A stretch of DNA of 64,000 bases. It comes from a virus. Below, piece after piece: positions 45,063 through 47,296 of the stretch (within the stretch, counting starts at the first letter, position 1; each line of letters opens with the position of its first letter). The DNA is taken from IMG/VR virus record IMGVR_UViG_3300042526_000595, positions 1 to 64,000 of that record; one strand, written 5' to 3'. The notes beneath the pieces were generated by a model. The model did not search any database. It saw nothing but the letters and a program-made list of their open reading frames with translations, and was not told the DNA's origin. Position numbers and translations under genes: made by a program.

Positions 45063-45095
45063 AACCCTCATCTACCAAGTTGGGGGTTTTTTTAT
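45063..45095 (+). terminator. intrinsic terminator
   Basis: The AACCCTCA / TGGGGGTT stem (one G-T wobble, 10-nt loop) is followed by TTTTTTT and closes the operon that starts at 42418. Confidence 0.75.
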
Positions 45096-45126
45096 TTAAA
45101 AAACTTTCCTTTTGATTAAACCGGTA

Positions 45127-45134
45127 TATTTATA
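45127..45134 (+). promoter_or_regulatory. putative late promoter octamer TATTTATA
   Basis: The octamer lies 16 nt before the ATG at 45151. It sits inside the longer frame that could begin at TTG 45112, which argues for the later start. Confidence 0.4.
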
Positions 45135-45150
45135 TAATAAAGATAAAGTT

Positions 45151-46065
45151 ATGGATATTAAAACTGAAAAAAAAATTATCTCCGAATATAAAAAGGGGAA
45201 AAGTAGTTTAGAAATTGTTAAAATTGTTGGATTATCAAAACCAACAATTCTTAAAGTACTACACAAACATAATTTAGTTAGAAAAAGAGATAGATGTTCT
45301 TCTTTAAATATTAAAAAAGATGGGGAAAAATACTATATTATTCGTAAATGTCCAAAATGTGGTCAAGACATAAAAACTACATCAAAAGATAGAACAATTG
45401 CTTGTCGGAATTATTTTAATTCCATAAATAAAAATAGTAATTGTGTTAAATGTATGTCAGAATCTTTTATTGGTGAGGGAAATCATTTTTTTGGTAAAAC
45501 TCACAAAAAAGAAAGTTTAGAAAAAATATCCAAAAGTAAAAAAGGTCAAAATTCAGGGGATAAAAATCATATGAAACAAGAAAAATATCGTCAAATGAGT
45601 AGAGATATTATGAGGTCAAATTGGGATAACGGTATATTAGATAGGGGTGTAATTTCTGAGCAAATGAAACAAACTCAACGAAGTGGTAAAATTAAATCAA
45701 CTATTGTTTCAAAAAAAGAAAAAGAGATTGTTAAAGAATTGAGAAAATTAGGTTATAAAATAATTCATTCATATCGGGTTGATAGTAAAGTGTGTGATGT
45801 ATATATCCCATCATTAAATTTAATTATAGAGTATTTTGGAGATTATTGGCATTGTAATCCAAAAAAATATGAACCAAATTATTTTAATCAGAAAAAAAAT
45901 AAATTTGCTTGGGAATTATGGGATTATGATAAAAAGAAACTTGAATTAATTAAAAGTTATGGTTATAATTTAGAAGTTGTGTGGGAGGGAGACCTAAAAC
46001 TCAACAATAAATTAATAGAAATCATAATAGAATCCTATGTCACAAAACTCACTTCAACGCCCTAA
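45151..46065 (+). CDS. homing endonuclease (HTH + Vsr/EDxHD-like nuclease)
   Basis: 304 residues from ATG 45151. Residues ~5-45 are a helix-turn-helix (EYKKGKSSLEIVKIVGLSKP). A zinc-ribbon-like pair of CxxC motifs follows (RKCPKCGQD and NCVKCMSE). A NUMOD-type DNA-binding stretch comes next (GEGNHFFGKTHKKESLEKIS). The last third is a very-short-patch-repair-like nuclease: KVCDVYIPSLNLIIEYFGDYWH. That is the free-standing homing endonuclease architecture of large phages. Its 3' end overlaps, in another frame, the first nine codons of the glycosyltransferase that starts at 46037. Confidence 0.8.
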   Translation: MDIKTEKKIISEYKKGKSSLEIVKIVGLSKPTILKVLHKHNLVRKRDRCSSLNIKKDGEKYYIIRKCPKCGQDIKTTSKDRTIACRNYFNSINKNSNCVKCMSESFIGEGNHFFGKTHKKESLEKISKSKKGQNSGDKNHMKQEKYRQMSRDIMRSNWDNGILDRGVISEQMKQTQRSGKIKSTIVSKKEKEIVKELRKLGYKIIHSYRVDSKVCDVYIPSLNLIIEYFGDYWHCNPKKYEPNYFNQKKNKFAWELWDYDKKKLELIKSYGYNLEVVWEGDLKLNNKLIEIIIESYVTKLTSTP

Positions 46066-47296
46066 CGGTCAAGAAAAGATTAGCGTACTCGTACTGCCAT
46101 CTGACCGCTCGGGCGTTGGTTAACAAAACGGTAAATTTCGCTCAGTCGACCCCCATGTATTCCTACAAAATCAATATCCCGATGATTTTCATGTGGATAT
46201 TGATTACGACCCAAAGATAGATGATATTAATTATTGGAAAAAATATCAGATAATTCACGCACATAGAACTATTGGTAATAACTACGATGTGTCGGCACAA
46301 ATAATTAAAGGGTTAAAAGAATTAGGGATTATTGTTATTGTTGATATTGATGATTATTGGTTACCAACAGTAGACCACCCAATCCATAGTATTATTGTAA
46401 AACATAAAATCCACGAAAAAATAGTTGCAAATTTAAAAGAAGCCAGTTATGTTACAACAACAACTGATTTATTTGCAAACGAAATTCGTAAGCTTAATAA
46501 AAATGTACTAGTTTTACCAAACGCTATAAATCCAAAAGAGGGTCAATTTAATCAACCAACACCACCATCAGAAAAAATTAGAGTCGGATGGCTTGGAGGT
46601 AGTTCTCACATTGAGGATTTAAATTTGTTGGGGAATTTTGTTCAAAAAAATCAAGACATAAATGATAAATTACAATATGTTATTTGTGGTTTTGATATTA
46701 GAGGTACCGTAACGGAAATGAATCCACAAACAGGTGAAGAAAGAAAAAGAGATATATTACCTCACGAAACTGTTTGGACTAAATATGAAGATATTTTCAC
46801 TAACAAGTATAAAACCATAGATGAGAACTATAAAAAACATTTATTAGAGTTCAAAGAAAGAGAATTTTTATCAACAAGTGATTTACCATATGTTAGAGTT
46901 TGGACAAAACCTGTTACAACTTACGCTATGAATTATTCAAAATTTGATATATCTTTGGCACCAATTAAAAATCATATATTCAATAGGATGAAATCTCAAT
47001 TAAAGGTGATTGAGGCTGGGTTTTATAAAAAAGCGTTAATTGCTTCAGAAATCGGACCTTACACCATTGATTTAAAACATTGTTTGAAAAATGGTAATTT
47101 TACAGATGGTAACGCAATTTTAATACCCGAGAATAGAAATCATAGTGATTGGTCTAAATCAATTAAAAAATTGGTTCAAAACCCTGAAATGATTACTGAA
47201 TTAGGCGAGAGATTATTTGAAACTGTTAAAGACAAATATGATTTAAAAAATGTGACCGTTACAAGAGCAGAATTTTACAAATCTTTAATTAAATAA
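46037..47296 (+). CDS. GT4-like glycosyltransferase interrupted by in-frame TAA (possible ribosome bypass)
   Basis: From ATG 46037 the frame reads 28 codons ending SVLVLPSDRSGVG, then TAA at 46121, then CAA AAC GGT, and continues in the same frame as KFRSVDPHVFLQNQYPDDF. It runs through HAHRTIG, VDIDDYW and RVGWLGGSSH to 47296. Removing 12 nt (TAACAAAACGGT) gives SGVGKFR, the expected continuous GT-B N-terminal loop; total 415 residues. After the stop the only in-frame start is GTG 46193, which would lose that loop. TAA is a normal stop elsewhere here. Either translation bypasses the gap (matched GGT take-off and landing codons), or the stop is read through, or the gene is broken. Confidence 0.7.

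Follow-up and report, generated by a model that had tools for sequence, protein, structure and literature searches.

The start of a glycosyltransferase gene in the 64,000 nucleotides of viral DNA analysed here (the window, part of a 73,869-base virus record) is very probably interrupted by a mobile homing cassette that contains its own short translational bypass element, as read from sequence comparison. Forty distinct gapped alleles of common anatomy were found, the window included. With somewhat less assurance, we think it likely that they belong to a widespread phage family of self-contained mobile bypass elements, in which an upstream hairpin and a stop codon would suffice for a hop of 5-13 nt, in any frame, to the first matching codon, with no special nascent peptide. 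Such an element would be the cassette's way into a conserved active-site codon, leaving its own target destroyed and the gene alive. The proposed family would include the first natural 'stop hops', and L179 (another endonuclease, another glycosyltransferase family, TCT-TAAAT-ACC, -31 kcal/mol hairpin) would stand as a second, independent type.

Programmed bypassing has so far, to our knowledge, comprised one well-studied bacterial-virus gene (T4 gene 60) and yeast mitochondria. Forty natural alleles with varied gaps, codons and frames would make it a comparative and easily tested problem, bearing on ribosome release, on landing-codon choice and on whether an upstream RNA zipper alone can drive a hop. 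They would also show how a homing endonuclease can occupy a conserved codon while the gene stays in use. Annotated 'truncated' phage genes may be hopped, and automatic gene prediction overlooks the true start in the case of this enzyme.

The window locus

The features of the locus, all on the plus strand, are as follows.

45096-46129, plus strand: complete mobile cassette, comprising the endonuclease gene, the substitute N-terminal codons with the take-off codon, and the stop and gap, from blastn breakpoints
45151-46065, plus strand: homing endonuclease (NUMOD3; Vsr-like EYFGDYWHCNP catalytic region), from Pfam, overlapping the glycosyltransferase start
46037-46120, plus strand: ORF1, 28 codons that stand in for the native N-terminal part of the glycosyltransferase, the take-off Gly last
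46054-46119, plus strand: predicted RNA hairpin on the 5' side of the take-off codon and in contact with it, MFE -26.3 kcal/mol (window), from folding and covariation
46118-46120, plus strand: take-off codon GGT, codon 28, from the sequence
46121-46129, plus strand: putative untranslated gap TAACAAAAC, TAA first (46121-46123), from the sequence
46130-46132, plus strand: landing codon GGT, exact 3' border of the cassette, from the sequence and blastn
46130-47296, plus strand: ORF2, GT-B glycosyltransferase body, 388 codons from landing to stop, from the reading frame and the fold predicted for a gapless allele (L001)

The gene reads ATG 46037...GGT-TAACAAAAC-GGT-AAATTTCGC. ORF1 translates from ATG 46037 as MSQNSLQRPNGQEKISVLVLPSDRSGVG and ends at codon 28, GGT; after the landing GGT, ORF2 continues with KFRSVDPHV... 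and is open to its stop at 47294-47296. An earlier note on this DNA had described the same ATG, GGT, TAA, GGT and open frame, in exact agreement with the sequence. It gave the gap as 12 nt, which is the length of the proposed hop, only 9 nt lying between the two GGT codons. The adjoining homing endonuclease that it placed upstream, overlapping the first glycosyltransferase codons, is the ORF at 45151-46065, assigned to NUMOD3 by Pfam. The RNA hairpin and an N-terminal extension of 8-12 codons are additions to that description.

Cassette borders

Against L001, the closest gapless allele, the blastn match of the window ends at 45095 and restarts exactly at 46130, with 98% DNA identity on either flank; 1034 bp in the window replace 110 bp of L001. 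With L001-L004 and L062 the breakpoints are nearly uniform, homology ending at 45095-45097 and restarting at 46130, where the landing codon begins. Homologues on viral contigs are mostly uninterrupted (...LPSDxxGVGKFRS), and all 34 gapless alleles have 17-18 codons at the position of ORF1. The earlier note's expected loop, SGVGKFR without a gap, is the rule outside the cassette. The absence of the gap from homologues, which it proposed to check, is seen in L001 and the other gapless alleles, and the insertion travels with the endonuclease.

By these breakpoints, the endonuclease and a substitute 5' end appear to have replaced the native glycosyltransferase start, the exchange reaching precisely to the codon of the final GVG (or GVS) residue. 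From the cassette borders we infer a putative endonuclease cut site at GVG|K. Four gapless alleles (L014, L048, L054, L055) have altered loop residues (GVS, GCG) exactly at this presumed target and could be homing-resistant.

The gapped alleles

Alleles were sought with a glycosyltransferase query, two endonuclease alignments and a DNA pattern. The allele finders demanded a stop codon; searches that started from the endonuclease or from the RNA model did not, and recovered the same loci.

The 40 alleles share a substitute N-terminal segment, a strong hairpin up to the take-off codon, a stop, a short gap, a landing codon and an intact ORF. Wherever tabulated, ORF1 starts 26-30 codons ahead of take-off. 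The stop stands directly behind the take-off codon in 40/40, and that codon specifies Gly (GGT, GGC) or Ser (AGC, AGT). In 39/40, Ser versions (AGC..AGC) included, the landing codon agrees with the take-off codon in its first two bases and no earlier triplet does, L155 (AGT to GGC) being the exception; since the landing residue is the native one, this matching is partly inherited and not independent proof. A jump from take-off to landing would always yield the native loop with no added residues.

Gap lengths are 2 nt (3 alleles), 3 nt (24), 4 nt (1), 5 nt (1), 6 nt (1), 8 nt (7), 9 nt (2) and 10 nt (1), so that 27 of the 40 are multiples of three and 13 change the frame. The earlier note had proposed a smaller, frame-preserving analogue of T4 gene 60. 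The analogy is supported, but only some members of the family, the window among them, preserve the frame.

Some features of codon choice and gene context were also observed. Although rare among the codons of the window, GGC and AGC serve as take-off in 17/40 alleles; in 17/17 of these TGA comes next, while GGT is mostly followed by TAA. In L156, L160, L164, L169 and L176 the same element heads a far larger protein, with 770-778 codons beyond the landing site; Ser codons predominate there, with gaps of 2-6. At L088:3360-3480 (also L179 and L286) another glycosyltransferase, behind another Vsr-like endonuclease, likewise has a start that runs into a stop. The junction reads ...DHPLAPS(TCT)-TAAAT-ACC-GGAGTTGGT, with a -31.1 kcal/mol hairpin ahead of the stop, and the gapless homologue L180 has LAPSGVGIQ. 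This may be an independent second type of hop, with codons that match imperfectly; a search for close relatives of its endonuclease found none, leaving the type as a single case.

The RNA hairpin

In the window the outer helix is predicted to pair 46054-46062 (TCAACGCCC) with 46111-46119 (GGGCGTTGG); across alleles the helix reaches the take-off codon or ends just before it. Minimum free energies for the last 69 nt of ORF1 run from -25.1 to -35.4 kcal/mol in 32 distinct gapped alleles and from -2.3 to -10.5 in 34 gapless ones, with no overlap, and the hairpin is missing from 34/34 gapless alleles. Base changes are compensatory: position -7 is C-G, G-C or T-A, and position -10 takes six pair types. 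Over the 32 sense rows, 84.0% of cells are paired (75.2% in shuffled alignments) and 71 have both sides changed (26 shuffled; maximum of 1000 shuffles, 38), figures that are indicative because the shuffles, like the E-values, treat related sequences as independent. A larger alignment, A4, which includes antisense copies, was left out of them.

RNAalifold returned no structure from the ungapped 32-sequence alignment, because the 5' arm shifts register between subfamilies, and a covariance model was used instead. Built from ten similar sequences, it recovers all the other hairpins, and it also found an unforeseen element on the opposite strand in L167/L168.

These data bear on hairpin-stimulated readthrough, in which ribosomes would decode the stop, translate the gap and lengthen the glycine loop by 2-4 residues. 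Readthrough would keep the frame in the 27 alleles with gaps divisible by three, the window included. It is impossible in the other 13 (gaps 2, 4, 5, 8 and 10), where the hairpin and the ORF1 length are no different and ORF2 is likewise intact. Moreover, the hairpin stands 5' of the stop and not 3' of it: the 60 nt past take-off fold at a mean of -5.1 kcal/mol, against -5.9 in gapless alleles, and none rises above background. The added residues would also fall within the beta1-alpha1 loop. We consider readthrough very unlikely overall, although for the 27 multiple-of-three alleles it would be out only by analogy with the 13 others.

The enzyme and its selection

ORF2 stays open for 378-778 codons past landing in all alleles but one, which runs off its contig. 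Pairwise dN/dS is 0.06-0.34 for ORF2 and mostly 0.05-0.43 for ORF1 (0.82 in one pair, from few sites). ORF2 is under purifying selection, as mostly is ORF1. The gapless enzyme L001 is predicted to adopt a GT-B fold (pLDDT 79), with GlgM, sucrose-phosphate synthase, BshA and MshA as best PDB matches. The GVG residues form the loop between strand 1 and helix 1 of this fold, so that both the loop and the first strand would be missing from a protein made by restart.

A broken gene, with an enzyme cut short by the cassette and an ORF2 that is either idle or entered at an internal start, is less likely still than readthrough. An early stop is normally inactivating, and some ATG, GTG or TTG lies within 15 codons in 23/40 alleles. 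Against this, ORF2 is undecayed, with dN/dS well below 1 even where the endonuclease is gone, and native amino acids are kept in ORF1 while codons and hairpin co-vary. Restart would drop beta1 and the glycine loop from the GT-B fold, and the gapped alleles have no conserved internal start. GTG 46193, which the earlier note had offered as a restart site, falls away, the position being GTA, GTT, ATT or TTA elsewhere; five alleles (L072, L049, L108, L125, L169) lack ATG, GTG and TTG throughout the 60 codons that follow landing.

More improbable again is removal of the gap from the RNA by a mini-intron or by editing. It would be compatible with the DNA sequence, and T4 gene 60 too was first suspected of splicing. 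The excised pieces would be 5-13 nt long with no conserved boundary past the Gly/Ser codons, the hairpin sequence is free to vary provided that pairing holds, and we know of no bacterial mini-intron or editing system of such a kind. An assembly or sequencing artefact, conceivable for records derived from metagenomes, is refuted by recurrence and deserves almost no weight: the 40 alleles are distinct, their changes are consistent with base pairing, and identical gapped alleles recur in independent metagenome assemblies (e.g. L011-L013, L108-L110, L295/L296).

The homing endonuclease and cassette mobility

The window endonuclease has 304 aa from ATG 45151. It matches homing-endonuclease PHROGs, and PF07460 (NUMOD3) above cut-off. 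Similarity to Vsr is weak, the TIGR00632 match (E 0.005) lying below that model's cut-off; relatives of the protein match MTES_1575 and annotated VSR endonucleases. A PDB sequence search with the endonuclease gave no match, and bacterial and archaeal genomes and named phages held distant relatives only. No isolate phage with the cassette was found, phage relatives of the glycosyltransferase being at most about 35% identical.

Most gapped copies have a NUMOD3/Vsr-like homing endonuclease directly upstream. Five full-length copies (L063, L279, L280, L283, L284) have none in the upstream sequence examined (only 673 bases for L279), and that of L033 is internally deleted; all six nevertheless retain the hairpin, the stop with its gap, and ORF2. 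Next to this gene, endonucleases of about 300 aa accompany the hop site, and a few of in-between sizes go either way. Related endonucleases, mostly of about 253 aa, occupy the same place before the same gene in L132-L141, L148, L153, L163, L177 and L084, where the native start is intact and there is neither stop nor hairpin. Hop-site cassettes and the ~253-aa endonucleases are two competing solutions at one site.

On the ORF2 tree the gapped or gapless state changes at least 18 times, 13 of the changes being forced by well-supported branches, and sister pairs of unlike state include window/L003, L073/L018, L126/L132, L111/L139 and L130/L177. In close pairwise comparisons, divergence is much lower in ORF1 than in ORF2: between L280 and L283 the last 17 codons of ORF1 are identical at an ORF2 pS of 0.70. 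The low divergence suggests recent cassette transfer, hairpin constraint or both. A distant glycosyltransferase family likewise has members free of the cassette (L289, L290, L293, MSKIKMLVTTIDGAGVGAYRMRW) and members that carry it with a gap of 8 (L288, L295, L296). At L168:2226-3314 the endonuclease lies inverted inside the gene start, with a hop-bearing substitute start on one side and a leftover native N-terminus, MSKIKMLVTTIDGAGVGA, beyond it; GGTGCTTA is found at both junctions. The hallmarks of a mobile cassette are present, namely an endonuclease beside the gap, close relatives without the cassette and a patchy distribution.

Proposed mechanism

The anatomy fits hopping with a stop in the A site, and the steps below are modelled on it.

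Pause. After translating ORF1 (26-30 codons), ribosomes would pause, the A site holding the stop and the take-off codon still paired with peptidyl-tRNA-Gly or -Ser.

Release. The inner hairpin would refold behind the ribosome. The outer helix would then complete while its 3' arm is still in the mRNA exit channel, pulling the mRNA and helping the peptidyl-tRNA off its codon. Because the outer helix ends 1-5 nt before the stop, it could presumably close only if the ribosome advances by about the observed hop length.

Landing. The tRNA would re-pair with the first matching triplet 5-13 nt on, and translation would restart to give a native-like LPSDxxGVG-KFR.

Persistence. The cassette would break the endonuclease's own DNA target at GVG|K at no cost to the protein, and could survive even after loss of the endonuclease.

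A Shine-Dalgarno (SD)-like signal was considered as a landing aid and dropped, such motifs being rare in this genome (2/49 ORFs). They are rarer before window ORF starts than in random coding stretches (2/49 against 7%), a scarcity that weakly suggests a host without SD pairing and would suit Bacteroidota. No tRNA genes were found in the window (1-64000).

Comparison with known systems

A search of the open literature, subscription papers and preprints lying outside its scope, found no earlier report of these elements. In T4 gene 60 a Gly take-off codon is followed by a stop, with a matched landing codon, a 5' stem-loop, an endonuclease upstream and gapless relatives (PMC5009743, PMC11194080, PMC3014915), and the cassettes resemble gene 60/mobA in each of these respects, the stop being immediate and the endonuclease a homing endonuclease. 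Refolding of the T4 5' stem-loop outside the exit channel has been proposed to pull the mRNA and start movement (PMC5009743, PMC11194080).

The differences are also many. T4 gene 60 has a 50-nt hop, an ORF1 of 46 codons and a KKYK nascent-peptide motif about 30 residues before take-off; the phage cassettes have gaps of 2-10 nt (putative hops of 5-13), ORF1 of 26-30 codons and no such motif, ORF1 being short and its extension variable. The take-off and 3' stem-loops of T4 are both lacking here, the gap being too short for the one and the 3' side at background for the other. The T4 mobA endonuclease is HNH, and that of the cassettes is of NUMOD3/Vsr type. Unlike T4 gene 60, the cassettes target a GT-B glycosyltransferase, use Gly or Ser codons and come as many independent alleles of varied gap length. 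By analogy the cassette would work like T4 gene 60; since the KKYK peptide and the take-off and 3' stem-loops are absent, it is not a strict member of the T4 element family.

The Byp elements of Magnusiomyces capitatus mitochondria occupy 81 sites in mitochondrial genes, apparently independently of mRNA context (PMC5009743, PMC8211752). Like them, the cassettes are mobile, have many copies and place short skipped blocks in coding genes; unlike them, they use one site per gene family, lie in bacterial-virus genes and have a conserved hairpin and an immediate stop. Synthetic 'stop hops' in E. coli reporters, with matched codons around a stop, decode 9 nt as one amino acid, and natural ones were not known to a 2016 review (PMC5009743). 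The gap-3 class here (GGC TGA GGT) has the layout of these 'stop hops', which are constructs. In domain content and in position beside the target gene, the cassette endonuclease is like free-standing phage NUMOD3/Vsr-like homing endonucleases. Unlike these, the cassette adds a substitute gene start and a hop site, additions that most ~253-aa relatives at this locus lack.
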